DNA of 64,000 nt. Origin: Malus domestica. Lineage: Eukaryota; Streptophyta; Magnoliopsida; Rosales; Rosaceae. The stretch is from contig NC_091669.1 in assembly GCF_042453785.1 (NCBI RefSeq), forward strand, positions 10,924,501-10,988,500, read 5' to 3'. Under the pieces are notes generated by a model that saw only the letters and a program-made list of their open reading frames with translations, did not search any database and was not told the DNA's origin. Below, piece after piece: positions 4,873 through 23,504 of this stretch. A program made the position numbers and the translations under genes. Within the stretch, counting starts at the first letter, position 1, and every line of letters starts with the position of its first letter.

Positions 4873-7800
4873 ATGAGGCTTTTGTCTTCGTCCTCGTCTC
4901 CGGGGTTTAATCATCAGCCTCAGGAAGGTATGCATTTTTTGTTCCTTATTTGGTTCTTTCACTTTTTGTCATCCGAAATTTAATACTCATCGAAGCGTTT
5001 GTTATTTCACTCTGAGCATTGTCCCGCTTGCTTTGATGCTATTTTTGTTTGGGGTCTGAAGTTACTGAGCGTACGTGTTAGGCAATTCTTATATGTGCAT
5101 GTCTTAATTAAAAGGTCATTGAACATGCCTACTCTATATTTGCTTTACTAGTGGCTGTGTCTATTTGTTTAGTTATTTCATGGTAAGGAAAGTGACACTT
5201 TATGCATAAATTACTTGTATGTTTGAGAAATTAAGTTTGGTGACTGAGCACACAACTTACCATTTTTCAATTATCTTAACTGCCCACAATGCTGGATGGA
5301 GTTCGAGGTGGAAACTTGTTATAAGATTGAATTGGTTTAGGATTATGAATCTATGGATGCTTATTTCATGCGTACTGACACAAGCATAGAAGCTATTGCA
5401 GAGGAGAAGAAATGTTTGAATTCTGAGCTATGGCATGCGTGTGCCGGGCCTCTGGTGTCTCTGCCTCTTCTTGGAAGTCGTGTAGTCTACTTTCCACAGG
5501 GCCACAGCGAGCAGGTAAGCAACCGCATCATTATCTCATTTATTGTTGAATGCAGATTTTTCTTTCTGATCGGTATTTGCAGAAAACAATTGTCTGGTTT
5601 GCAGTTTGTAGAATAGGGAAGTTTGTTGTTTGTTAATTTAAGGACTTATTCTTTTGGTACCATTGTCTTGTTTTTGTATCTCCTTGCATCTTGATTATTG
5701 AGAGCATATCTTAAAATGAATAATTATTCTTGTGATCTTGGAGTCTGGATACTAAAATTAGTATGTATTTTGATGTTGGCGTGCTGTGTAATCACAGGTG
5801 TATATTAATTTATAAAGGATGATTTGTTACTATAGAAAATAAATAAATAAATAAAGGATGAATTAGAGCTTATTTTTTCGTTACTTGTTTGTTTTGTTTT
5901 TGTTTGATATTGTGCATCATGTATATAGCTACAAATTTGTATATTAAGCATTTTATACAAATCATTACCTCAATTACTATAATGTAGTCCAGTACTTTTT
6001 AAGTACACTTGTTGCTCAAACAGCTGAATCTTCTAATAACCTTACAGGGTATCCTTTCCGCGTTGTTAATTCCTGGTATTTCTTATACAGGTTGCAGCAT
6101 CAACCCACAAGGAAGTGGATGCCCATATTCCCAATTACCCCAACTTGCCTCCGCAACTAATTTGTCAGCTACACAATGTGACAATGCACGTAAGTGTCAG
6201 CCTGTTTATGTGTTCTCTGTACAATTTCGTGGGACGCTCATTAAAATTTTAATTCTATGGTACAGGCAGATGTAGAGACGGATGAAGTATATGCTCAAAT
6301 GACCCTACAACCATTAAGTCCGGTACTGCATTAGGCTGGTTTTAAATTTTGATTTGTGAGTCAAGTAATTTTCATGTCCTGACATAAACTGTTTTGTAGC
6401 AAGAGCAAAAAGATGTATACCTACTGCCTGCAGAGTTGGGTGCTGCCAGCAAACAGCCAACCAACTATTTTTGTAAAACTTTGACTGCAAGTGATACTAG
6501 CACACATGGAGGATTCTCTGTTCCCCGCCGTGCAGCTGAAAAAGTTTTTCCCCCTCTTGTAGGTGTCCTTTTCTTTGACTCATTTGATCATTTGATCATC
6601 ACTCTTCTATTCTTTATTTTTTCTTCATAAACTTGGTTTCATTCATTTTATTTTACCGTTCCTCAGGATTATTCGCAGCAGCCCCCTGCTCAGGAACTAA
6701 TTGCAAGGGATCTTCATGATAATGAATGGAAATTCAGACACATATTTCGAGGTGAGTATCATTTTGTTCGGTATTCTGTTTTGTATCTGCTGTCGGTATC
6801 TTTTATCATTTTTTTCACATATCACTCTTCAAGTCTGTTGATCTATCTTAGATGCCAAAGTAACTGAGGGCAGTGGTACTTCACACACAATTCAGACACT
6901 TCGTGGTTCTAAATCTCAAAATGAAAATTTTGGGGAAATTTTTTATTTATTGGCATGAGTTATATCCAATATCCATGTCATGATTGTCTCATTAAAAACA
7001 TATGAAATGTCTTATTTACTTGAACTTGACTTTCTATACCTAGGTTTTTCTTGTTTTATTTCTTATTTTTCAATTTATACTCTGGTTTGACAAGAGGTCG
7101 CACTTGGTGCGATGGCAAGTGCCTTCGCCCATAAGCGGTAGGTCTCGGGTTCGAGACTTGGGAGCAGCCTCTCCATAAATGGGGGTAAGGCTAGCCGACA
7201 TTCACCTCTCCCAGACCCTGCGTAAAGTGGGAGCCTTGTGCACTGGGTACGACCTTTTTTATACTCTGGTTTGACAAAAAAAAAAATTTATACTGTCTGG
7301 AATTCTGAACATGTAATTCTAGGTTCTAATTGTGTTTTGCCATGTTGTTGTGCAGGCCAGCCCAAGAGGCATCTTCTCACGACAGGATGGAGTGTGTTCG
7401 TTAGTGCTAAACGACTTGTTGCTGGTGATTCGGTCCTCTTTATCTGGTAAGTTAAAACTGTTATTCTGTTATTGGAGGGTTGGTGGTAGTTGTATTTATT
7501 CCGTCAAGAATTGTTGTAATCATTTTTCTCTCACTAGCGTGTTGTCTTGAATCAGGAATGAAAAGAATCAGTTGCTCTTAGGTATTCGGCGAGCAAATCG
7601 TCCACAGACTGTCATGCCCTCGTCAGTTTTGTCAAGTGACAGCATGCACATTGGTCTTCTTGCTGCTGCAGCTCATGCAGCTGCAACAAATAGCCGCTTT
7701 ACTATATTTTATAATCCGAGGTGAGCATCTGCTTCTGATTGTAAATACTACTATTTACCTCTTATTCCTCAATTTTCTATTTTTTTTTACAACGCAGGGC

Positions 7801-10776
7801 AAGTCCATCTGAATTTGTGATACCCCTGGCCAAATATGTTAAAGCTGTCTATCACACTCGGGTTTCTGTGGGCATGCGATTTAGGATGCTGTTTGAGACA
7901 GAAGAGTCTAGTGTCCGTCGGTGTGTTATTTCTCCTCGTAGTTCAGTTTCATTATACAGTTTATGATTCACATTTAATTAAGTGGTTATTCATACTTGTA
8001 TTATACTATTAAGTGGGTTATTTACCTTTCTTATTTATTTTGTTTGTTCTTTTTCTTAAGATATATGGGTACAATAACTGGCATCAGTGACTTAGATTCT
8101 GTTCGCTGGCCAAATTCTCACTGGCGCTCTGTGAAGGTGTGTTGAGAGCATTTGGTGATTATGGTGCTCATTAGAATTCCAATATTTTGCTATTAAAAAT
8201 TTTACAATCTTTTGATTGAGGTGTGGCCAGTTTTTTAACTTTTTGAAACTTTGTAAGGTTTGTAAACGTGTTTTCTGCTAATGCAGGTTGGCTGGGATGA
8301 ATCCACTGCTGGGGAGAGGCAGCCAAGAGTATCATTGTGGGAGATTGAACCACTAACAACATTCCCAATGTATCCATCCCCATTCCCCCTCAGACTAAAG
8401 CGACCTTGGCCATCGGGTGTTCCCTCTTTCCACGGTATCTTTGGGTTTTTGCTTGAGGTATTGTCACAAATTCTACTGTTTCTTTTGCCCCTTAAAATAT
8501 TCAGTGGTATATTCATTTCAGGTCTCAAAGATGGTGATATGGGAATTAATTCTCCACTGATGTGGCTTCAAGGAGGGCTCGGAGACCAGGGGATGCAATC
8601 TTTGAACTTCCAGGGATTTGGAGTTTCTCCTTGGATGCAACCAAGGCTTGATGCGTCTATGGCAGGTCTACAACCCGATGTATACCAAGCAATGGCAGCC
8701 GCTGCACTTCAAGAAATGAGGGTAGTTGATTCTTCAAAAGGTTCTTCACAGTCTCTTCTGCCCTTCCAGCAATCTTCAAGTGTTTCTAATGGAGCTGCTG
8801 CTGTGCTTCAAAGACAGGTCTTGCCTCAGTCTCAAAATGCTTATCTTCAGAACTTTCAAGAAAACCAAGCTCCTGCTCAGGCTCAGGCTTTGCAACAGCA
8901 GTCACAGCGTTATCATCCCTATAGTGATCAGAGGCAACAGCAGCAGCAGCAGCAACAGCAACAACAGCAGTTGAATCAGCAGCAGCAACAGCAACAACAG
9001 CAGTTGAATCAGCATCAGCAGCACCAACATCAGCTTCAACAATCCCATCATCTGCACCAATTGTCTGTTCCGCAGCAGATCCCGAATGCTATGTCTGCTC
9101 TACCTAATTTTGCCTCAATCACTCAATCCCAGTCTGCATCTATACAGTCCATCTCTTCACAATCTCAGCAGCAGAGCTTTCCTGATCCTGTTGGAATTCC
9201 TATACCTTCATCTGATGTCCCCCCTATACATAGCATCTTAGGTTCGCTATCACAGGATGGAGCATCCCACTTACTTAACTTAAGTGGATCCAACTCAGCA
9301 ATTTCTTCTTCCTTGTTACCCAAGCAGATCACTGGTGAACCACAGCTATCATCTGGAGCTGCTCAATGTGTACTTCCCCCAGTGGAACAGTTGGGAACAC
9401 CACGGTCAAGTTTTTCTGAGCTCACTGCTTTGCCTCCATTTCCTGGTAGAGAATATTTCGCATTCCAAGGTGGTACTGATCCCCAAAGCAATCTTTTGTT
9501 TGGGGTGAACATTGATTCATCATCTCTCATGCTGCATAATGGGATTCCACCAAACCTGAGAAATATTGGCAATGGAAATGATTCATTGTCCCTGCCGTTT
9601 GTTGCTTCATATACCAGTGGCACAGGCAATGACTTTCCACTTAATTCCGATATGACTACATCAAGTTGCGTAGATGAATCAGGATTCTTGCAGTCTTCAG
9701 AAAATGTGGACCAAGTAAATCCAAGTCGAACCTTTGTGAAGGTAAGATGAGATAATTGTGATAGTTTATTTACATGTGTATTTATTCTTAACATGATGGT
9801 CAGATGTATGGACCATTGTCAGAGATTGTATTGGGCAATGCAAATGCATTGTGATCAGTGTTTGCTTTTTCAAAACTAGCACTTGTCATTGGTATCTCTT
9901 GTTTTTTCTTTAATTTTTTTTTAAATTTGTATTTTATTAAAATGGTGCAATTTGACAGGTTCACAAGTCAGGGTCCTTTGGGAGGTCACTGGATATTTCT
10001 AAATTCAGCAGCTATGATGAGCTGCGCAGTGAGCTCGCACGTATGTTTGGCCTTGAAGGTCAACTGGAGGACCGTCAGAGATCAGGCTGGCAGCTTGTAT
10101 TTGTTGACAGGGAGAATGATGTTCTTCTCCTTGGTGACGACCCTTGGCAGTAAGTCCCAAATTTTCATGATTTTGCTTATATTTGTCAATTAATGTACAC
10201 TCTTGGCTGTTTGCATAAGCAGTTCAGAAGGTTGAGCTTCCCATGAGTTTCAATCATTACCGATAGTTTGTGAAATGATTCATGCTGAATCACTGTGCGT
10301 AATTTTAGCGTTAAGTGGCTAATATTATGATCTTATGCTGTATGCCAATTTGTAGAGAGCAACAGTGATAAATTTAGACAACGCTCTGAGGTTCAAAGTG
10401 TCCTAGGACTAGCATCATCTAGTCTTTTGACTGTTTTCTCACCTTTTCGAGATTTTAAGTTCCTATTGTGGATGTCTGTTTCTCTGAGCCAAAGACAATT
10501 GGCTTCTGGAGTTTTGAAACTATTCTTGTCATGATTCACTGGAGGTATAATGATTCTTTATTTATTTTCAGGGAATTTGTGAACAATGTGTGGTATATCA
10601 AGATACTCTCGCCTATGGAAGTGCAACAAATGGGAAAGGAAGGCCTCAACCGTGTGGCTTCTATCCCAAACAATAAGCTTTCCAATGGTAGCAACACCTG
10701 CGATGACTATGCGAGTCGACAGAACTTGAGAAACCCAAGCAATGGGATTGCATCTTTGGGATCACTTGACTACTAA
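4873..10776 (+). CDS. ARF6: Auxin response factor 6 (class A activator ARF)
   Basis: Nuclear transcription factor that binds auxin response elements and activates auxin genes, known for flower maturation and growth. Fourteen exons: 4873-4927, 5402-5514, 6091-6189, 6266-6322, 6400-6558, 6667-6751, 7356-7446, 7556-7720, 7798-7920, 8061-8136, 8287-8434, 8522-9741, 9959-10149, 10572-10776. All junctions are GT-AG and phases agree, giving 2,787 nt and 928 aa, close to Arabidopsis ARF6. B3 DNA-binding domain about 130-230 ([20 protein letters not shown]), ARF auxin-response domain about 265-350, glutamine-rich activation region about 400-600, and C-terminal PB1 (domain III/IV) about 798-885, where it meets Aux/IAA repressors. 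The glutamine-rich middle and length favour ARF6 over ARF8. Start: ATG 4873 gives the family's MRL N-terminus. A miR167 site lies in exon 13. Intron 6 holds a SINE; intron 11 is open in frame. No coding damage seen. Confidence 0.95.
7094..7260 (+). mobile_element. Au-type SINE in ARF6 intron 6
   Basis: The sequence starts with GGTCGCACTTGGTGCGATGG, contains an RNA polymerase III B-box-like GGTTCGAGACT, and ends in GGGTACGACC plus a short T run. This is the plant Au SINE pattern, tRNA-derived and mobilised by LINE enzymes. It is flanked by a direct repeat ATACTCTGGTTTGACAA at 7077-7093 and 7261-7277, a near-perfect 17-bp target-site duplication. Orientation is the same as ARF6. It does not disturb splice sites. 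Confidence 0.9.
8435..8521 (+). other. ARF6 intron 11, 87 bp and open in frame
   Basis: The intron between exons 11 and 12 is 87 bases, a multiple of three, with no stop in the ARF6 frame. Retention would add 29 mostly hydrophobic residues between the DNA-binding half and the activation region without ending translation. Splice sites (GTATCT donor, TTTCAG acceptor) look usable, so normal splicing is expected. Confidence 0.7.
8935..9045 (+). repeat. CAG/CAA repeat coding polyglutamine in ARF6
   Basis: Mixed CAG and CAA codons encode two glutamine runs, each followed by Leu-Asn-Gln. A block of about 33 bases ending in AGCAGTTGAATCAGC appears twice in tandem, so the second run looks like a recent internal duplication. 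This is inside the glutamine-rich activation region, where length variation between alleles is plausible. Confidence 0.85.
10078..10098 (+). promoter_or_regulatory. miR167 target site in ARF6 exon 13
   Basis: The 21 bases GAGATCAGGCTGGCAGCTTG(T) are complementary to plant miR167 apart from mismatches at its 5' and 3' end positions and one central-side position, the same arrangement seen in ARF6 and ARF8 genes of other plants. It overlaps codons for RSGWQL in the PB1 domain. miR167-guided cleavage of ARF6/ARF8 mRNA is well established. Confidence 0.92.
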
Positions 10777-11181
10777 AGGCCAATGCTTTGCTAAAGAAGG
10801 AAAATTAAGAAAAGTGGCGGCGAATGATATGAGTGTTTAACTATGCTTAGTAGTGTTTTCGTAAAAGGATTGGTAGCATTCTTTTAGCTTTTATGTGGTC
10901 AGTGAGATGTAATGCTTAGGCAAAGTCTATTTGAAGCTGGCATGTCAGCTTATAATTACATACTGTAAATTATAGTAGGAAGGAACCTTGTTTCTGAAAC
11001 TACCGCAACAGCATGTCGAACAACACGTACCGTACGAGTTTGGTGTCCGATGGCACTTTCTATGCTCTCATGTCTTGTAATTTGTTATTAATTGGAGTCG
11101 AAAACATATCAAGAATCAGACCGATCAAGTTAATTTACTATATTGAAAATCTTGAGCCTTGAGGTAGGTTTCAGTAAGTTG
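10777..11181. other. ARF6 3' untranslated and downstream region
   Basis: Sequence directly after the ARF6 stop, AT-rich and conserved with 14930-15290 in the duplicated copy, which supports it being transcribed 3' untranslated sequence. No canonical AATAAA was noticed, as is common in plants. Confidence 0.55.
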
Positions 11182-11199
11182 TATATATATATATGTGTA

Positions 11200-11230
<31 letters not shown>
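11182..11230. repeat. TA/TG dinucleotide microsatellite
   Basis: A compound run of TA and TG dinucleotides about 49 bases long. The duplicated copy at about 15290 has only a short TATATATATTTT tract, so the repeat expanded in copy A or shrank in copy B. Confidence 0.9.
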
Positions 11231-11375
11231 CCGAAAGTAGTTGTATTGGTTCAACTCTAGGTCATTGAATTTGTGCTCTTTTGCTGACTGCATGCATGTA
11301 TTATCTAAAGATGTTGTTTGGCAGTTTATATGTGAGGATCCATCAATACTGCGTGTTCTGTTTTGATGTTACCAA

Positions 11376-11405
11376 CCTAACCCTAACCCTAACCCTAACC
11401 CTAAA
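11376..11405. repeat. Interstitial telomere-like CCCTAA repeats
   Basis: Five units of CCTAA/CCCTAA occur in tandem, the last one matching the plant heptamer CCCTAAA. Copy B of the duplication has only TTAACCCTAGCCTAG at the matching place, so the array is local expansion, not a chromosome end. Confidence 0.85.
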
Positions 11406-12425
11406 TGGGTCTCCTCTCTTTGTCCTTTTCCCGTATTGAGACTGGCCTTACTTGTGGAAGCTGATGACAAATAAAACCTAGCTATCCTTCCATGCATTTA
11501 AACCCCTTCGTGGATGAAATAAATTGAATTTTTGTTTCTTCATTAATTAATTAGGGTTTTTTCATTTGTTTTTTTCATGTCTGTCGACTTGCATCTTTCA
11601 CTACTTACCAACCCGGGCGCTATCAACAAGTAGAATCTACTAATAATACTTCTTTGGCCTATTTCTTTTGTTTTTAATTACCCTTAATACAGTATGCCGG
11701 ACCCGTGATTAGTATCAATTTTAATTTTCCTTTAATATAATTATGTTGTTTACTTCCTTTCTTTTAATTATTTCTTTCAATTCTGTCATCGTATCAGACC
11801 AAAATATGAATATAGTGGAGCAATCTACTGTCATGGTTTCTCCGTTTGAACTTTCACAGATTTATTCGGAATTCATATTTTTGTCAATGCATGTGTTTTA
11901 ATTCTATTTATTTATCATGCTGGAAATGGCCTTTGCCATATTAAATAAAAATATTTTGTGACCTCAAACAAATTACCCCCATTAATTAACTAGTCGATTG
12001 CACAATTTGAAACTCGCATAACCCTCGCATCCAGTGTAACACTTCTACAGATTTTTATCCCTACAGAAGCAATTGTACAAGAGAGAATTTGTAACTTAAT
12101 TTCCGATGTTCGTGAATAGGCGTTTCCATCATATAAAAGACACAAGTAAGGGTTCAGAAGGAGGAGAGAATCCATCAAGAAAGGGCCAAAAGAACAACAA
12201 GAAGCTAAAAAACACACGCACGAAAAACAAGGCAGTGACCACAATCACAAGAAGCTAAAGAACAAACCCGCACATCAGGAGGCAACTAATTGACCAGTCC
12301 TATGTTAGAGGTTGCGAGACAACCTTAACTCTCAGCAAGAAAGTTCCACATATACTTCATACTTGGCAAAAATAAAAAACTAAGAGAAAGAAAATAAGAT
12401 AGAAGACCCCGTTCATGAGTGCAAT
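11406..12425. other. Duplicated intergenic flank before the first WAKL fragment
   Basis: No gene. This AT-rich stretch is part of segmental copy A. Its last 300 bases (GGTTCAGAAGGAGGAGAGAA onward) match 22660-22931 and hold the likely promoter and leader of the WAKL fragment. Confidence 0.6.
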
Positions 12426-12887
12426 ATGCATTTGCTTCTTCGTTTGATCATTTCGTTGTTATGGCGCATATGCATAGTGGCAGCATCATCATCAGATAAA
12501 GTTTCACCGATAGCAGGGTCCGGTTGCGAAACTCATTGCGGAGATGTTAGCATCCCATACCCTTTTGGGATTGGACCTAGCAGCAATTGTTACTTGTACG
12601 ATTGGTTTGAAATAGACTGCAACAACTCTACCAGCGGGCCCAAGCTTTTATTGAAGAACACCAAGATAGAGGTGCTCGATATTTCAGTTGAAGGCACGCT
12701 TCGAGTTAAGTATCCTGTTATGTTCTTCAACAGAAAAATGGTTCCCCAATTGCCAAATTTTACAGGAAGCCCCTTCGTGTACTCTCATGAACGCAATAAA
12801 TTCACTGCAGTCAGTTGTGGCTTCTTTGCCTTGGTAAGGTCATACTGGGACCAGCGTGTTGTTGGTGGATGTATGTCAAATAATTAA
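12426..12887 (+). pseudogene. WAKL receptor gene, 5' fragment (copy A)
   Basis: Opens with a signal peptide (about residues 1-22) and a galacturonan-binding WAK domain containing [17 protein letters not shown] and the WFEIDC and GSPFVYS motifs, the extracellular wall-binding part of wall-associated kinases. The match to its sister at 22932 runs to GGCMS, then sequence changes abruptly at about 12879 to unrelated repeat DNA and a stop follows. EGF, transmembrane and kinase parts are absent. If made, the 153-aa product would be a secreted partial ectodomain. Lys and Arg substitutions relative to the sister copy suggest relaxed constraint. Confidence 0.82.
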
Positions 12888-13640
12888 CTAAGAATATGAT
12901 AAACACAAATTATTTGAAACAATCCCGATGACAGCGCCAATTTCTTGATAGAGATTTTTATTACTTGCAAAAGTAGGGATAAAAACACTTAAAAATACTT
13001 GTAAGAGTACAAAGTTATTGTAGTATAGCAGCTCAAGTAAGATCGTTCTCCATTGAATGAATAATTTATGCAAAACCAAAATCTTAGTTAATTATTTAAA
13101 AACAAGGATTGGAAAAAGTTGATTTTGAATTTAAAAATAATAAAAACGAATTTAATTAAAATGATTAAAGAAATTAACAAACAGAAGAAAACAAAAGAAA
13201 ATGTTTTGAAAACCAAATTGTACAAGCCTAGGGTTCAGCCATCCCCTTAATAATCTTATGTAGATTTACCAATTACTTATAAATTACACATGTAACTTTG
13301 AATGTTAGATTTTCCTAATGTATACTCTACTTGTGGCATTCAAGCTAGAACGTATATCAAACATGCAATTCGTCTGTGGCATTCAGATCAAATATAAACA
13401 TACATGACTCATTACGCTTTGTGAAAACCCTTTGAAAAACCATGCAACCCCTAAGACGTGGCATTCGTCCTAGGTGAACTTACAACTATCAATCACAAGA
13501 AGCAATACTCAATCCTCTAGTGGCATTCCGACCAAATTGCATCCGATTACTTATCTAAACATCCTAATGATAGTTAAGCATTAAGATATAAATGGCTTAG
13601 ACTTTGTGGTGGGATTGGTTGGAACTTTTGGAAAAATGTT
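12880..13640. mobile_element. Unclassified dispersed repeat, possibly retrotransposon part
   Basis: AT-rich non-coding sequence with the phrase GTGGCATTC repeated four times at 50-110 base spacing. The same order of motifs (AAATATAAACAT, CCCTAAGA, GCATCCGAT, CATCCTAATG) is found in reverse at 63700-64000, so this is a repeat family. It cuts off the WAKL fragment at 12879. I cannot assign a class. Confidence 0.55.
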
Positions 13641-13890
13641 CTGATTTTTAACGTTTTCTATGAATTACAACTTGAAGGTGAAAATTATCTTAGTAAAAAA
13701 GTCGGCCTTGTTTAACTAGGTTCAAGCCCTTAACCATTCGTGATACTCTTCCACTGGTTAGAGAATACACCCGAAGATGACGATCAACATAATGGTATCA
13801 TAACATGCATGTTTCAATATGAATGTGATTTCATCATCAGTGTGTACTTTCACATATTTCTGTAGACTCCCAATGGAAATGTGTATCACC

Positions 13891-14190
13891 TGTTGGGAGT
13901 AACAATTCCACGTTGAGGAATGAGATATTGCATGTACTTACAAGTAATTGGGCAACTCTCTTCTTGCCAATTAGTATTATATGGTGGGACCTCAACTTCT
14001 ACATGGTATCAGAGAGCAAGTTGTTATGTGTGTGAAGCCCAACAGCCACACTTCATCCGATTTATGTTGTTCATGTGCTAGGCTTGATAATTTGCCACAT
14101 GTGAGGAGGCGTGTTGGAGTATCAATCCTACATCAGGAAAGGAAGGAACCTTGCATGTGGTAATTGTACTCTTGCCCTTTGTTTCCTGTT
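13891..14190 (+). mobile_element. TRIM-like retrotransposon remnant
   Basis: Possible 5' LTR 13891-14003, starting TGTTGGGAGTAAC and ending TTCTACA, followed at once by TGGTATCAGAG, the initiator-methionine tRNA primer-binding site. A second TGTTGGAGTATC start at 14112 looks like the start of a truncated 3' LTR. The internal part of about 110 bases with paired CCACAC/GTGAGGAGGCG motifs resembles the intact TRIM at 48554. No coding capacity, as expected for TRIMs. Confidence 0.7.
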
Positions 14191-14192
14191 TA

Positions 14193-14510
14193 CTCACATC
14201 TTTCACTACCTACCAAACCCTACAAGCGCAAGCCAGTACAAGATTTTTATGTGACGAACAACATTCCAAAAAGATTATGTATCCAGCGCAAGTTTGTATG
14301 TGACGCTTTCCTAAAATTCCTCACTTTTTATACCAAAATATGATGAATTTATATGTGTCACATAAAATGTCGTAAGCTAATCCATGTTTTCTTGTAGTGA
14401 GCGTTATCAACAAGAACAATGTCCTGGGACCATTTTCTGTGATACAAAGTCTTTGCTTTTTTTGTTTACCCTTAATGCAAGATATCTGAATTGTGACTAG
14501 TAAGATTAAA
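14193..14510. repeat. Third partial copy of the ARF6 3' flank
   Basis: ACTCACATCTTTCACTACC and, after an interruption, GCGTTATCAACAAG and GTTTACCCTTAATGCA match 11580-11720 and 15705-15830. A roughly 180-bp piece ending TTTTCTTGTAGTG interrupts the match. So this flank exists three times in the window, and the duplication history is more than a single event. Confidence 0.6.
14218..14399. mobile_element. Probable mini-CACTA (MITE) insertion
   Basis: It ends TTTTCTTGTAGTG, the inverse of the CACTACAAGAAAA terminus of plant CACTA elements, and begins with a degenerate CCCTACAAG. It sits exactly where the third flank copy is interrupted. Internal GCGCAAG/TATGTGACG motifs repeat. Too short to code for anything. 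Confidence 0.55.
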
Positions 14511-14598
14511 TAATGTTTTCTCGTAAGTCCTATTCATGTTATAATTATATATAACCATGAAACTTTCTATATTGCGGTTAATTACATTTAAAAAAATG

Positions 14599-15903
14599 TA
14601 TTCTTGTCATGATTCACTGGAGGTACAATGATTCTTTGTTTATTTTCAGGGAGTGTGTGAACAATGTGTGGTATATCAAGATACTCTCGCCTGTGGAAGT
14701 GCAACAAATGGGAAAGGAAGGCCTCAACCGTGTGGCTTCTGTCCCAAACAATAAGCTTTCCAATGGTAGCAACACCTGCGATGACTACGTGAGTCGACAG
14801 AACTTGAGAAATTCAAGCAACGGGATTGTGCATCTTTGGGATAATTCGACTACTGAAGGCCAATATGCTTTCCTGAAAATTGAGAATATATTAAGAAAAT
14901 TGGCGGCGCCGGCTAATGATGAGTGTTGAACTGTGCTAGTAGTGTCTTCATAAAAGGATTTGTAGCATTCTTTACACTTTTATATGGCCAGTGAGATGTA
15001 CTGCTTAGGCAAAGTCTATTTGAAGCTTGCATGCAGCTTATAATTATATACTGTAAATTATAGTTGGAAGAACCTTGTTTCTGAAACTTCCGCCACAGCA
15101 TGTAGAACAACGCACGTACATTACGAGTTTGGTGTCCGAGTCCGTTGGCATTTTCTATGCTATCTTGTCTTGTCTTGTAATCTTGTCTTGTAATTTATTA
15201 ACAATTGAAGTCGAAAACCATGAATTTGACCGATCATGTTAATTTACTATATTGAGAATATGGAGCCTTGAGATAGGTTTGAGTAAGTTGTATATATATT
15301 TTTATAGCCGAAAGTAGTTTATTGGTTTAACTCTAGGTCATTGAATTTTTGCTCTTTTACTGGCTGCATGCATGTATTATCTATGTGAGGATCCATTCTT
15401 CTTTATCTTATCTGCAAATCTTAGTCTGACACATGCAAAAGTAATTTATCAAAAGATGACAAATAGTAGAGTTTCAGTACACGTTATTACGTGCAAGGCA
15501 TCGGTAATATACAATGAATAGCTCGGCAGCTCTGGTGGTACAGTTGTTTCAGTAAGAGCATCTCCAATCATGTTCTTGATTTTTAGTTAACCAACTTAAC
15601 CCTAGCCTAGATGGATGAATAAATTAAATTTTTATTTCTTCATTAATTAATTAATTAATTAGGGTTCTTCATTTGTTTATTTCGTGTCTTCCCGTCGACT
15701 TACATCTTTCACTACTCTACCAATACCTGCAAACCCAGACGCTCTCAACAAGAAGAATCTCTAGAAACTTGTTTGCCCTATTTCTTTTGTTTTTTAATTA
15801 CCCTCCCTAACTAAGCCGGACCCGTGATTAGTAGTAACATTAATTTAATTATGATGTTTACTTTCTTTCTTTCTTTCGATTCTTTCATCATCAGACCAAG
15901 ATT
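14599..15903. repeat. Segmental duplication, copy B, left part
   Basis: Matches 10521-11800 in order: end of ARF6 intron 13, exon 14, 3' flank, and the ATTAATTAGGGTTCTTCATTTG block. Homology stops near the CATCAGACCAAGATTC at 15890-15903 and resumes at about 22612, so roughly 6.7 kb was inserted into copy B afterwards. Confidence 0.85.
14650..14929 (+). pseudogene. Duplicate ARF6 terminal exon with intact acceptor
   Basis: The acceptor TTATTTTCAG at 14640-14649 is preserved, and the reading phase is the same as ARF6 exon 14 at 10572. It encodes the end of PB1 ([20 protein letters not shown]) with Phe-to-Cys as the second residue. A one-base insertion near 14829 shifts the frame and replaces the normal ASLGSLDY ending with a longer tail ending PANDEC, stop at 14929. 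There is no other ARF6 exon nearby, so alone it is a fragment; spliced from ARF6 exon 13 it would be an alternative last exon. Whether that happens is unknown. Confidence 0.85.
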
Positions 15904-16463: not shown

Positions 16464-16866
16464 ACAAGAAATTATAAGGTAGTATTGCATTACCACGTTA
16501 TCTGTGGTCCTTCCATTTAAAATTTGACATGTGTACTATTTTATCACAGCTGGATTAGAAATTTATTTTAAGAAATTAAAAAAAAATTAAATACCTGAAA
16601 GAAAAAAAACGCAAAGGCAGCGACCCTACCCCTCCTTTGCAGACAAGTCCCCATCCCAGTCCTCTGCCTCCACGGCTCCAACCCGACTTCAGGCCACTGG
16701 TGGCTATATCAGCTGCCTTCCTTATCTCTTCCCCTCTTTCCCTATACAAATTTCAACTAAGACTATTTCTTAAGAGAGTTTAGGATTCATCCAATATCAT
16801 GAACACATGTTCTTCTCTCACCGATTCTTCATAAACTACATTAAGCCGGTAAATTCACCCAATTAA

Positions 16867-17222
16867 TGTTAGTTGATTAAGGTCTAAACTGTATTTTCCT
16901 TACTTTAGCAAGTGTAAATAAATCAGTTAGTGATCAAGGGCTGAGATTAGATAATATTGTGCTAGGCTCAGATGTAAGCATGTGTCAAGATCTCATAGGG
17001 TCTTGTAATGAATGGTATGATGAGCTCATAGGCTCACGTAGCTTCTCTCTCCCTAGTAGTCATGTAACTGTTGAGGAAAGAATGAATATATGCAGTAGAG
17101 CATTTCTTTGGCTCTCACTGAGATATTTTGAGAACTCTCTCTGCCTCTTCACTTTCTCTCTAAACTTCTTCTTCCTATACACATTTCTAAACTACATCAC
17201 TGCATAACAGGAAAGTCCAACA
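16867..17222 (+). repeat. 5' LTR of the copia element
   Basis: Starts TGTTAGTTGATTAAGG and ends AAAGTCCAACA. Differs from the 3' LTR at about five positions in 356. It would hold the promoter of the element. Flanked on the left by ATTAA. Confidence 0.93.
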
Positions 17223-17235
17223 TGGTATTCAGAGC
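17223..17235 (+). other. Primer-binding site of the copia element
   Basis: TGGTATTCAGAGC directly follows the 5' LTR and matches the initiator-methionine tRNA 3' end used by plant copia elements, except for one extra T compared with the usual TGGTATCAGAGC. Confidence 0.8.
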
Positions 17236-17328
17236 CTAGGTTCGATTTCGGATTGGGCGTTGAATTCTGTGAAATTGTGTGAGAGAATCCAACGTGAAAT
17301 CTCTCAATTTCATTCCGATTCAAGCTAA

Positions 17329-18921
17329 ATGGCTGGATCTGGAAGCGGTGATTTACGAGCTCCCGTTTTTTATGGAACGGAGTTCGAGTTCTGGAAAGTG
17401 AGAATGGTCACCATTTTCAAATCGTATGGGATATGGAAATTGGTTGACAAAGGGATTGCTATTCCAGAATCGAAGAAGAAAGGAGAAAAGAAGAAAACAA
17501 AGAAGGAGAAAGACGAGGAAGATTCATCCTCATCGGATGATGATGAAGGAGATGATGACGAGTTGGATGCACACATGGAAGATCAGCTCATGAAAGATGC
17601 TAAGGCACTGGGCATTATTCAGAGTGCTGTCTCGAAGGAGATCTTCCCTCGGATTGTAAATCAAGAGACCTCAAAGGGTGCTTGGGATCTACTCCAGGAA
17701 GAGTTTCGCGGCGATGAACAGGCAAGATCTGTTAAACTTCAAAGTTTACGTCGTGAATTTGAGTATATGAGAATGAAGGAGAATGAATCTCTATCTGTCT
17801 ATCTTACTAGACTATTTGAATTAATTAATCAAATGAAATCTTATGGTGAGAACCTCACTCATCAAAGAGAAGTGCAAAAGGTTTTGATTAGTTTGTCCAG
17901 TAAATATGATCCAATCTGTGTTGTGATTGAAAGAACTTCTGATTTGAATACTGTGACTGTGCAAGAAGTGGTAGGATCTCTTAAGAGTTATGAGCTTAGA
18001 TTGAGTAGACATGTTGATGAAATTACAAGCACGGAGCATGCTTTCTCCACTATGGGTCTTGTACCTAAAGCACAGAATAGGCCACTCACACAGGGAAATC
18101 ACAGTAAGGGAAAGAAGAATTGGAAGTCTATGTCTAGGAAGTGGGAAAACAACACTCGACAGCCTGAGAGACAAGGTGAGATCACTGAGGGTGTTAAACA
18201 AAAGTGCAAGATCTGTGATAAGGCTCATCATGGAGAGTGTTGGTTCAAAGGAAAACCTAAGTGTCATAACTGCAACAGATTTGGACATGTAGTGAGAGAT
18301 TGTCACCAGCCAAAGAAAAATCATACTGCAAATTATTTGAATCATGTTCAAGATAATGCAATGATGTTCTATGCCTGTCATAAGGCCTCTGTGCAAGAAA
18401 ATAGTGGTGTTTGGTATCTGGACAATGGTTGCAGTAACCACATGACCAGTACTGAATCATTGCTGATCAACATTGACAGAAGTATAAGGTGTAAGGTGAA
18501 AATGGGCACATGGGAATTGGTTGACTCAGTTGGCAAAGGCATACTGATTGTGGAGACCAAAAGAGGCACTCGGTTCATACCAGAAGTAATGATTGTACCT
18601 GGTTTGGATGAAAATCTTCTCAGTGTAGGACAAATGGTTGAACATGGCTATTGGTTGTTGTTTGGTGATTTCATGGCCTGCATATTTGGAGATCGTGAAC
18701 TGCAAGATCATATAGTCACTGTGAAAATGAAGGGAAATAGATGCTTTCCACTAATGTTTAATCATGTGGATCATATTGTAGCAAATATTGTTACCACTGA
18801 AGGTAACACATGGAAATGGCACAGAAGATTTGGGCACCTAAACTATGACAGCCTGAGAATGCTACAAGAAAGGAGTATGGTGTATGGTCTGCCATATCTA
18901 AAGGAGTACAATCAGGTGTGA
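17329..18921 (+). pseudogene. Copia gag and protease region, frameshifted at its end
   Basis: Begins with the UBN2-type Gag (about residues 10-230), with an acidic/lysine-rich insert at 45-85. A CCHC zinc knuckle with the spacing C-x2-C-x4-H-x4-C lies around residue 310. The retropepsin region has WYLDNGCSNHM, where the usual D-S/T-G active-site triad reads D-N-G. A GAG-pre-integrase domain (WHRRFGHLNYDSL) follows. The frame ends at TGA 18919 because of a one-base shift; integrase continues in another frame at once. Encodes particle protein and processing protease in intact relatives; here broken. Confidence 0.88.
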
Positions 18922-20242
18922 AGGGTGTGCTACTGGAAAAGCTCACAGAGAGGCTTTTAGCAAAGAACAGAAATGGAGAGCAAAGTTGCCCTTAGAACTT
19001 GTACACACAGATGTGTGTGGACCCATGAGTGAGACACTTGGAGGTAGTAGGTATTTTCTTACCTTTATAGATGACAAGTCCAGAATGTGTTGGGTCTATT
19101 TTCTGAAGTGCAAATATGAGGTATTCAGAATTTTTAAAATGTTCAAGGCCATGACTGAATTACAAACTGGTTACAAACTGAAGAAACTCAGAAGTGACAG
19201 AGGAGGAGAGTACACATCTCTAGAATTTGAAATTTTTTGTGAAGATGTTGGTATTGAAAAGCAACTCACTGTTGCTTATTCTCCCCAGCAAAATGGTATT
19301 GCTGAGAGGAAGAATCGTACCATAGTAGAGATGGCAAGAACCATGCTCTATGAAAAAAAATTACCACTCAAGTTCTGGGGTGAAGCAGTTCACACTGCTG
19401 TCTACTTGCTTAACAGGTGTCCTACCAAAGCACTAGAGAACAAGACTCATTTTGAAGAATTCTGTGGTAGAAAACCAGGAGTAAAACACTTGAGAATCTT
19501 TGGTTCTGTTTGCTACACTCATGTGCCAACCCAGTTAAGACAGAAACTGGATGAAACTGGACAGAAATGTGTATTTGTTGGATATGGGACAAGAGAAAAG
19601 GGTTACAGGGTGTATGATTTGAAACACAACAAGATCATTGTCTCAAGGAGTGTTATTTTTGATGAAGATGCTGCTCTTAATTGGGAGAATATGGAAACTG
19701 TGCATTTCTCAGTACCTTTCTTAGAAGCTAATAAGGGTATAAGCATAACTGAGATAGAAAATGGTGTGTGTGAAGAAACGAATATTAGTTCCTCTGATTT
19801 ATCTTGCCCAAATACAAGAAGTGAGTATGTTTCCAGTGTACACAATGATGCTCCTAACACTGTGAATATGGAGAGTGAAATTCCACTCACAGAAACTTAT
19901 GACAACACACCAAAGAAGTGGAGAGATCTGAATGAAGTGTTTGCTCAGTGTAGACTCAGTGTCATTGAACCTGAGAACTACATTGAAGCTTCTCAAGATG
20001 AAGCTTGGAAGAAAGCAATGGATGAGGAGATTACTATGATTGAGAAGAATGACACTTGGAGATTGGTTGATAGGCCAAGTGACAAACCAATTGTTGGGGT
20101 AAAATGGATCTTCAAAACCAAATTGAATTTGGATGGCACTGTACAAAAACACAAGGCAAGATTAGTTGCCAAGGGTACACTCAAAAGCCCGGAATTGATT
20201 TTAATGAGACGTTTGCACCTGTGGCTAGATTGGACACTATAA
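18922..20242 (+). pseudogene. Copia integrase and start of reverse transcriptase
   Basis: The integrase core shows the D, D and E positions in LVHTDVCGPM, SDRGGEYTS region and YSPQQNGIAERKNRT, which in active copies insert the element cDNA. The first reverse-transcriptase segment ([20 protein letters not shown]) follows. A single-base loss near 20175 throws the frame off after VAKG, and a stop appears at 20242. The next RT segment continues in the neighbouring frame. Confidence 0.88.
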
Positions 20243-20793
20243 GAACACTAATTGCTTTGGCAGCACAGAAAGGGTGGAAACTGTACCAGTTAGATGTAAA
20301 GTCTGCTTTCCTGAATGGGATCCTTGAAGAGGAAGTGTATACAGATCAGCCAGATGGGTATATTGTCAAGGGAGAAGAACACAAAGTATATAAGTTAAAA
20401 AAGGCCTTGTACGGTCTAAAACAAGCTCCCAGAGCTTGGTACAGCAATATTGATACTCATTTGCTGCAGAGTGGATTTAAAAAAAGTCCAAGTGAGGCCA
20501 CCTTATATGTGAAACATGTGGATGGACAGGGAACTCTGATTGTCTCTATATATGTGGATGACATAGTTTATACTGGAAGCTGTTTAGAAATGATTGAAGA
20601 TTTCAAATGTGATATGATGAACAAGTATGAGATGTCCGACTTAGGCTTGTTGCATCATTTTTCTTGGAATTGGAGTAATCCAACAAGAATGGAGTATCTT
20701 TATTCACCAGAAAAAGTATGCACTGAGTTTACTAGACAAGTTTGGTTTGAAGAGCTGCAAATCTGTCTCAATACCCTTACCTCCCACGGATAA
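20104..20793 (+). pseudogene. Copia reverse transcriptase, middle segment
   Basis: Carries RT palm motifs: [23 protein letters not shown] and the catalytic SIYVDDIV. A one-base gain in a T run near 20660 shifts the frame after LGLLHHF, so the rest read here is not RT. Overlaps the previous segment only in the non-coding sense of frame. Confidence 0.88.
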
Positions 20794-21520
20794 GCTAAGG
20801 AAAGGTGATGGGAGTGAAGCTGCAGATGAAGAATTGTATAGGAAAATTGTCGGCAGCCTTCTATACTTAACTGCAACAAGGCCTGATATCTTGTACTCAG
20901 CGTGTGTACTTGCCAGGTACATGCACTGTCCTTCCATCAAACATCTTGGCACTGCAAGGAGGATCCTCAGATATGTGCAAGGAACTGTTGACTATGGAAT
21001 TAAGTATGAAAAGGGAAATGCAGCTCTACTCATAGGATTTTGTGACAGTGATTGGAGTGGAGATGAAGATGACATGAAGTCCACATCAGGGTATGCTTTC
21101 AGCTTTGGCAGTGGTGCATTTTCTTGGGCTTCTGTAAAGCAACAGAGTGTTGCACTCTCAACTGCTGAAGACGAGTATATGAATGCCTCAGAAGCCACCA
21201 CTCAAGCTACATGGCTGAGATTTGTGCTGCATGATTTTGGTGAAGAATTGATCGAACCAACTCCTTTGATGTGTGATAACACATCAGCAATTGCAATGTC
21301 AAAGAATCCGGTATTCCATCAGAGGTCTAAACATATCAAGAGGAAGTTTCATTTCATCAGAGATGCAATTCAGGAAGGAACAATTGACCTGCAATACTGC
21401 AAAAGTGAGGAGCAACTAGCTGACATTTTCACCAAAGCGCTTGCTAAAGACAGATTCTGTGCTTTGAGGGATAAGCTTGGGGTAATCTCAGTTAAGACCT
21501 TAGAAGGGAGTGTTACTTGA
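20747..21520 (+). pseudogene. Copia RT end and RNase H
   Basis: The RT connection (KIVGSLLYLTATRPDI, RILRYVQGT) leads into the RNase H domain with CDSDWSGDEDDMKSTSGY, CDNTSAIAM and SKHIKRKFHFIRD, and ends TKAL. This part is intact by itself but lies in a different frame from the upstream segment. Its last codons run to the edge of the 3' LTR. Confidence 0.88.
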
Positions 21521-21866
21521 TTAAGGTCTAAACTGTATTTTCCTTACTTTAGCAAGTGTAAATAAATCAGTTAGTGATCAAGGGCTGAGATTAGATAATA
21601 TTGTGCTAGGCTCAGATGTAAGCATGTGTCAAGATCTCATAGGGTCTTGTAATGAATGGTATGATGAGCTCATAGGCTCACGTAGCTTCTCTCTCCCTAG
21701 TAGTCATGTAAATGTTGAGGAAAGAATGAATATATGCAGTAGAGCATTTCTTTGGCTCTCACTGATATATTTTGAGAACTCTCTCTGCCTCTTCACTTTC
21801 TCTCTAAACTTCTTCTTCCTATACACATTTCTAAAACACATCACTGCATAACAGGAAAGTCCAACA
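21511..21866 (+). repeat. 3' LTR of the copia element
   Basis: Starts TGTTACTTGATTAAGG immediately after the purine tract and ends AAAGTCCAACA, followed by the ATTAA target copy. About 98.6 percent identical to the 5' LTR by eye. Confidence 0.93.
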
Positions 21867-22611
21867 ATTAAGTGTTTTCCTTATCAAAACGCACAAAAAG
21901 GTACTCACAAATCTGTAAGAGACGTTGTTTTACTAACATCGCTGCCACCAAAGGTACTCAGAAATTGTAGAAACGACACCACCAAGATGATTAATGGATT
22001 GGGATTTCGAATTCGTTGTTATATTCATCGGGTTTTCAAATTAGTACACCAATATGAGTATTGGGTTTTCAAATTAGTACACCAAGATGATTAATCCACA
22101 AAACCCTCAGTGGGTTTTCAATATAATTAATCCACACCACAGCCATGGCGTGGAGACGGAGGACTGGGACGGAGACTTGTCGGGAATGGAAGGTGGGATC
22201 GCTGGTGTTTTTTTTTTTTTAGTATTTAATTTTTTTTGAATTTTTGAATTTTCTAAAATAAATTAGATGTCCAACTGTGATAAAAATTATACATGTCAAA
22301 TTTTAAATGGAAGTACCACAAATAATGTGGTAGTACTGTACTACTTAATAATTTCTCATCTTAAACAAAATTGAGGATATACTATAAAACCAATTGGCTA
22401 TATGAGAAGTAGTCCAACTTACTTATAAACTCATACAAGGCCTCTTCTTCCATCAATATAGGATTCATTCTCAATAGCCACCCTCATATGTGGCGGATTT
22501 TAAAGTCAAACATGTGGACATGACAAACGAGAAGAAATTTAAAGTTTCATCGTAAAACCAATTGACAATATTATAATATAATCTTTTATAAGTCCATGCA
22601 AGATCTCTTCT

Positions 22612-23393
22612 TTCTGTTTGATTCATTCTCTTCATAGCCATCATATAAAGACATAAAAACGGCAACGGGTTCAGAAGGAGGAGAGAATCGAACAAGAAAG
22701 AGCCCAAAGAACAAGAAGCTAAAAAACAAACACGAAAAAACAAGCCAGTGACCACAATTACAGGAAGCTAAAGAACAAACCCGCACATCAGGAAGCAACT
22801 GATTGACCAGTCCAATTTTAGAGGTTGCGAGACATTCTCAGAAAGAAAGTTCCATATATACTACGTATTTAGCAAAAATAAGAAGCTAAGGGAAAGAGAA
22901 TAAGGGAGAAGACCACATTCATGATTGCAATATGCATTTGCTTCTTCGTGTGATCATAATTTCGTTGTTATGGCCCATCAGCATAGTGGCAGCATCATCA
23001 TCAGATAAAGTTACACCGGTATTAAAGTCTGACTGCGAATCTCATTGCGGAAATGTTAGCATCCCATACCCTTTTGGGATTGGACCTAGCATCAATTGTT
23101 ACTTGTACGATTGGTTTGAAATAGACTGCAAGAACTCTACCAGCGGTCCCAAGCCTTTTTTGAAGAACACCACGATAGAGGTGCTGGATATTTCAGTTGA
23201 AGGCACGCTTCGAGTTGAGCATCCTGTTAGGTTCTTCAACAGAACAATGGTTCCCCAATTGCCAAATTTTACAGGAAGCCCTTTCTTGTGCTCTGAGGAA
23301 CACAATCAATTCACTGCAGTCAGTTGTGGCTTGTTTGCCTTTGTAAAGTCATACCCGGACCAGCGTGTTGGTGGTGGATGTATGTCAACTTGT
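22612..23393. repeat. Segmental duplication, copy B, right part
   Basis: Resumes homology with copy A at TTCATAGCCATCATATAAA (copy A 12118) and continues through the WAKL leader and coding start to GGATGTATGTCAA. Beyond this point copy B keeps more WAKL sequence than copy A. Confidence 0.85.
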
Positions 23394-23504
23394 GATACGA
23401 GTGCTGGGCCTGAAGACAACTATGGATGTATTGGTATTAACTGTTGCCAGATTGCGCTTCCCAGGAATCTCAGTTTTTGCTCCTACGTACAGTTTTTGCT
23501 CTAG
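22932..23504 (+). pseudogene. WAKL receptor gene, 5' fragment (copy B)
   Basis: Sister of the fragment at 12426. Signal peptide (about 1-22), then the WAK galacturonan-binding domain ([34 protein letters not shown]) through the double-cysteine motif GINCCQ, which copy A has lost. It runs into foreign DNA after LPRNLSF; the short tail and stop at 23504 come from a CAGTTTTTGCTC repeat at the junction. No EGF, membrane span or kinase follows; an antisense LINE fragment begins instead. A 190-aa secreted protein is possible but unproven. Confidence 0.82.

Follow-up and report, generated by a model that had tools for sequence, protein, structure and literature searches.

Gene content of the locus

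The analysed window, i.e., the whole stretch of 64,000 nucleotides, covers C9:10924501-10988500 of the apple genome (651,096,769 bases, 19 contigs; chromosomes 9 and 17 correspond to contigs C9 and C17, respectively). It contains a gene for an auxin response factor, presumably ARF6. The coding region lies at 4873..10776 on the forward strand and, as judged by GT donors, AG acceptors and the translation, is comprised of 14 exons encoding 928 residues and a stop codon. Among solved structures, the product is best matched by PB1 domains, namely those of ARF7 and ARF5. The last position of exon 13 is 10149, and this exon carries at 10078 a motif that we presume to be a miR167-like site. It is followed by the donor GT of intron 13 (10150..10151, forward strand, GTAAGT), and exon 14 (10572..10776, forward strand) encodes the end of PB1 and the C-terminal tail ending in GSLDY, with the stop codon TAA.

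Apple chromosomes 9 and 17 have been reported as homoeologous (PMC6450873), and matches for all 14 of the 14 ARF6 exons are present in the chromosome 17 homeolog. In intron 6, the fragment 7010-7284 has no alignment to the homeolog's intron. Its part 7123-7260 matches another place on chromosome 17 at 95% and, by resemblance, is presumably a tRNA-derived SINE.

Upstream of ARF6, Pfam identifies a lipid-transfer-protein gene, accompanied by an apparent decayed relative (1127-1471 and 2438-2990), and self-comparison shows that 1885-1950 is similar to 2919-2980. Downstream, a cluster of WAK-type receptor genes occupies 26071-53590. In this cluster, Pfam finds heads of the GUB_WAK_bind or WAK type, along with kinase frames distinct from them, at about 26-29, 37-39, and 44 kb, and frames at 51-53.6 kb resemble members of the cluster in self-comparison.

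A second copy of ARF6 exon 14

A copy of exon 14 lies at 14650..14929 on the forward strand, preceded by the acceptor AG at 14648-14649 and open to a TGA codon at 14927-14929. In the alignment, 192 of 205 positions of the two exons are identical, and the copy has one 2-bp insertion. The adjoining tail of intron 13 has been copied as well, with 49 of 51 nt identical to the original and the acceptor AG retained.

The acceptor and the reading phase of the copy fit ARF6 exon 13. Joining exons 1-13 to 14650-14929 in silico yields an open product of 953 residues, in which the phenylalanine of the EFVNN motif is replaced by cysteine (codon 14654-14656) and the frame shifted by the insertion adds, after NGI, a new tail of 33 residues. 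The original prediction had described exon 14 as duplicated together with its acceptor and in the same phase, and both the alignment and the joined product agree with this; the exchange of Phe for Cys and the swapped C-terminal tail, which it had also named, are seen in the translation.

Evidence for a partial tandem duplication

The copied DNA extends far beyond the exon. By self-BLAST and alignment, the duplicated unit has a left part (10521..11805, forward strand) that comprises the terminal 51 nt of intron 13 together with exon 14, the 3' UTR, and intergenic DNA. The second copy of this part lies at 14599..15902, also on the forward strand. By self-BLAST and Pfam, the right part (12126..12879, forward strand) is the truncated head of a WAK-type gene with a frame from 12426 to 12884. 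Its second copy (22638..23388, forward strand) is a WAK-type gene head with a frame from 22932 to 23501. Both frames have the GUB_WAK_bind domain (PF13947), and the Pfam scan of the two gave no kinase match.

Three direct blocks recur in collinear order in self-BLAST: 10521-11307 at 14599-15383 (82%, E 0.0), 11511-11805 at 15612-15902 (75%), and 12126-12879 at 22638-23388 (88%). The fragment 11308-11510 aligns poorly. The E value of the first block rules out chance similarity of the exon 14 copy. The order of the blocks is ARF6 tail, intergenic DNA, WAK head, and they comprise both coding and non-coding DNA. Downstream of ARF6, there is also a short interstitial telomere-like run of CCCTAA-type units (11376-11405), of which the copy has only traces at about 15590-15615.

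The original prediction had placed the copy at 14599..14929. The open frame indeed ends at 14929, but this position is only that of the new stop codon, as the copied DNA reaches ∼15902 and the order resumes at 22638, neither of which the prediction had mentioned.

The left end of the unit (10521/14599) is sharp and lies inside intron 13. As in other partial tandem (segmental) duplications with a passenger exon, the blocks are direct and collinear, the left breakpoint is intronic, and the head of a neighbouring gene is included; the difference is that the right end is blurred here by repeats and mobile elements. This structure points to a tandem segmental duplication, with the exon 14 copy as its leading edge. 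The presence of only the 3' end of the gene would also be expected of a 5'-truncated retrocopy, that is, a processed copy of ARF6 mRNA. We rejected this possibility, which has next to no chance of being correct, since the copied DNA includes 51 nt of intron 13 as well as intergenic DNA, and the intron sequence, the DNA past the UTR, and the head of the neighbouring gene recur in order.

The left WAK head is cut off by a dispersed repeat at 12878..13590 (no strand assigned), found by a genome search with 12860-14610. The whole query gave 2946 first-look candidates, of which 40 were scored. Among these 40, the long matches lie within 12869-13592, most of them end within 2 nt of 13590, and seven begin at 12878-12879. 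The right copy is split by an LTR element (16867..21866, forward strand) with LTRs of 356 nt that have five differences and with a 5-bp target-site duplication, ATTAA. From a reading of its frames, the element is probably of the Copia type. It is enclosed by a pair of inverted-repeat arms detected by self-comparison, 16467..16674 (no strand assigned) and its partner 22149-22356 (78%), as if it had been inserted into an older inverted-repeat element.

The chromosome 17 homeolog and the age of the duplication

On chromosome 17, we found one match to exon 14 and no second copy, both in 40 kb of the locus and in a genome search with 14550-15000. This search returned five matches: the query itself, the original, the chromosome 17 exon, and two short ones that we assume to be ARF8-like tails. 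About 1.4 kb past the ARF6 stop codon, a frame of the WAK type begins in the chromosome 17 locus (positions 11584-12594 in the joined stretch). Within the cluster, it is similar to members located at 36.9 and 43.8 kb in the window, and it matches the two WAK heads over 83 and 66 nt only, at 73-74%. Hence the order of ARF6 followed by WAK is common to the two chromosomes, but by gene type only, since the chromosome 17 frame does not closely match the WAK heads.

Over 482 aligned columns of the flank, the original and the copy have 47 differences, the original and chromosome 17 have 77, and the copy and chromosome 17 have 83; the first two values differ with p 0.005. Changes are specific to the copy in 23 columns and to the original in 17, chromosome 17 differs from both in 53, and seven columns have three different letters. 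This places the duplication at a depth of ∼0.56 of the split between chromosomes 9 and 17. As the smallest number of flank differences is that between the original and the copy, the duplication looks younger than the split, barring gene conversion. For the same reason, a duplication predating the split is not favoured, although gene conversion could mimic this pattern.

While the structure of the locus, the block order, the relative age, and the lost features are seen in the sequence comparisons, we infer that both copied parts stem from one event, which probably arose as follows. After the split of chromosomes 9 and 17, a segment of chromosome 9 comprising the end of intron 13, exon 14, the 3' UTR, intergenic DNA, and the WAK head would have been tandemly duplicated. 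The acceptor would have survived in the exon copy because 51 nt of intron 13 came along. Subsequently, a conserved residue of PB1 would have been substituted in the copy and its tail frameshifted. Over this time, the left WAK head would have been truncated by repeated or mobile DNA, and the right unit split by the later, presumably Copia-type, element.

Conserved features lost in the copy

A search of this genome with the PB1 end (E up to 10) gave 20 protein matches, six of the exon-13 type and 14 covering the helix phenylalanine. Thirteen of these 14 PB1 ends, including the original, carry this residue, and only the copy has cysteine; several of the 14 are homeolog pairs and hence not independent, and some ARFs may be missed. 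In our reading, the lost residue is the PB1 alpha2 Phe. The second change concerns the C-terminus. All six intact ARF6/8-type tails found, a class of our own definition, end in GSL(D/E)Y, i.e., GSLDY or GSLEY, and other PB1 tails among the matches end differently. The copy has lost this end due to the 2-bp insertion, which is absent from both the original and chromosome 17. The copy has thus retained neither the conserved ARF PB1 phenylalanine nor the ARF6/8 tail. The product joined with the copy matches the Pfam domain AUX_IAA with 28.7 bits, compared to 34.5 bits for the original and the cut-off of 22.7 bits.

Substitutions and indels in the copy

The branch leading to the copy has seven substitutions at 256 sites of the intron tail and exon, compared to 21 at 388 sites of the flank (p 0.117). 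When indels are included (one and seven, respectively), p is 0.034. For the same regions, the original has 7 and 14 substitutions (p 0.65), and chromosome 17 has 13 and 27 (p 0.41). The ratio of the exon region to the flank in the copy, 0.51, is lower than that in the original (0.76) and on chromosome 17 (0.73). The comparison of the exon alone with the whole flank yields p 0.31 for the copy, 0.82 for the original, and 0.02 for chromosome 17. When the sites are divided post hoc, the copy has 2/185 changes in one part and 28/553 in the other (p 0.016).

Up to the insertion, the changes specific to the copy are a single clear replacement (F to C) and two silent ones, besides an ambiguous site (M, V or L). 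Over the exon, the original has three replacements of its own and an equal number of silent changes. If F to C is set aside, the copy up to the insertion is therefore more conservative than the original. The selection tests, which have low power, do not show it to be clearly relaxed; they are compatible with constraint or conversion in the past, and fall short of demonstrating function.

One explanation for this pattern is gene conversion from the original, which would maintain the similarity of the acceptor and of the beginning of the exon in a functionless copy. In the intron tail and the first 134 nt of the exon, the original and the copy indeed differ at 6 of 185 positions, compared to 56 of 553 in the rest, although this split is post hoc. 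On the other hand, the difference between the original and chromosome 17 is also lower in this region (14/185 vs. 84/553), as coding constraint would give, and the numbers are small. We consider conversion unlikely; it would be an addition compatible with the copied exon being a passenger of the duplication.

The open frame as such was rejected as proof of function. Among 20,000 simulated neutral copies, 62% retain both the AG and the open first 54 codons when only substitutions are allowed. With indels at the flank rate, of which 70% were assumed to shift the frame, the fraction retaining the AG and an unshifted open frame is 8%.

Possible use of the copied exon by ARF6

The distance from the exon 13 donor to the acceptor is 422 nt for the original and 4500 nt for the copy. 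The acceptor sequences are nearly the same, but the copy lies behind the original acceptor and the ARF6 3' end, and the regular exon 14, part of a receptor gene, and the dispersed repeat would all lie within a 4500-nt intron. As splicing is co-transcriptional, the first acceptor should win nearly always. Use of the copy is thus unlikely, since the transcript would have to pass ARF6's own acceptor and 3' end and to splice out an intron of this length. Most likely, ARF6 transcripts would be spliced at 10571 and end in their own 3' UTR, and lack of use is what we infer.

The copied exon is hence best explained as a passenger of a partial tandem duplication located in front of the receptor-gene cluster, and is probably used rarely or not at all; we assign this interpretation a probability of roughly 85%. 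Points against it are that the copy is not clearly relaxed, that few simulated copies with indels keep the AG and the frame, that the WAK frame of chromosome 17 corresponds by type only, and that the right end of the unit is blurred. The origin of the exon is ordinary. The original prediction had instead presented it as a ready-made alternative terminal exon, controlled by the choice of the poly(A) site. This is not supported, as the exon is part of a larger duplication, has lost the PB1 phenylalanine and the GSL(D/E)Y end, and lies 4500 nt away, behind the acceptor and the 3' end of ARF6.

A working alternative terminal exon would require that transcription pass the poly(A) site of ARF6 and that exon 13 be spliced to 14650, producing an altered PB1 and a new tail; the product would perhaps be less bound by Aux/IAA proteins. 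The intact acceptor, phase, and frame are consistent with this, as are the AUX_IAA match above the cut-off, the small number of changes in the first part of the copy, and the existence of ARF isoforms with altered C-termini (PMC12671496, PMC10095807). However, given the loss of the alpha2 phenylalanine and of the conserved tail and the content of the long intron, we regard such use as improbable. We give similarly little credence to a more specific version, in which the copy has, ever since it was duplicated, served as an alternative ending at a low level, joined by exon 13 upon failed termination. It would provide an ARF6 with a weakened PB1 (Cys for Phe, no GSLDY) that keeps the presumed miR167-like site and escapes some Aux/IAA binding. 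If this were true, it would be an ARF isoform derived from a duplicated terminal exon instead of intron retention. If used, the copy would also represent naturally occurring PB1 variation in an auxin-response regulator of a tree crop.

Several known ARF isoforms can be compared with such a product. MP11ir, a PB1-lacking isoform of Arabidopsis ARF5 (PMC12671496), arises by retention of the last intron (PMC10095807). The copy, if used, would also alter the PB1 of an ARF and thereby weaken its control by Aux/IAA proteins. MP11ir differs in that it results from a retained intron instead of a second terminal exon, and its transcript has been observed. Arabidopsis ARF8.4, elevated in flowers, is a splice variant of an ARF6 relative (PMC10095807) and likewise has an altered C-terminal end. 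Splice variants of ARFs exist also in tomato (PMC3888382). The passages on these variants describe intron retention, frame shifts, and changes of splice sites, with no mention of a duplicated terminal exon. Our literature search, covering the best matches by titles and abstract openings, gave no description of an alternative ending for ARF6 or an apple ARF, although one may still exist in print.

As a passenger, the copied exon clearly illustrates that partial duplication in tandem, next to a cluster of receptor genes, can leave behind a splice-competent last exon of the adjacent gene. Such copies may be wrongly joined by gene predictors.
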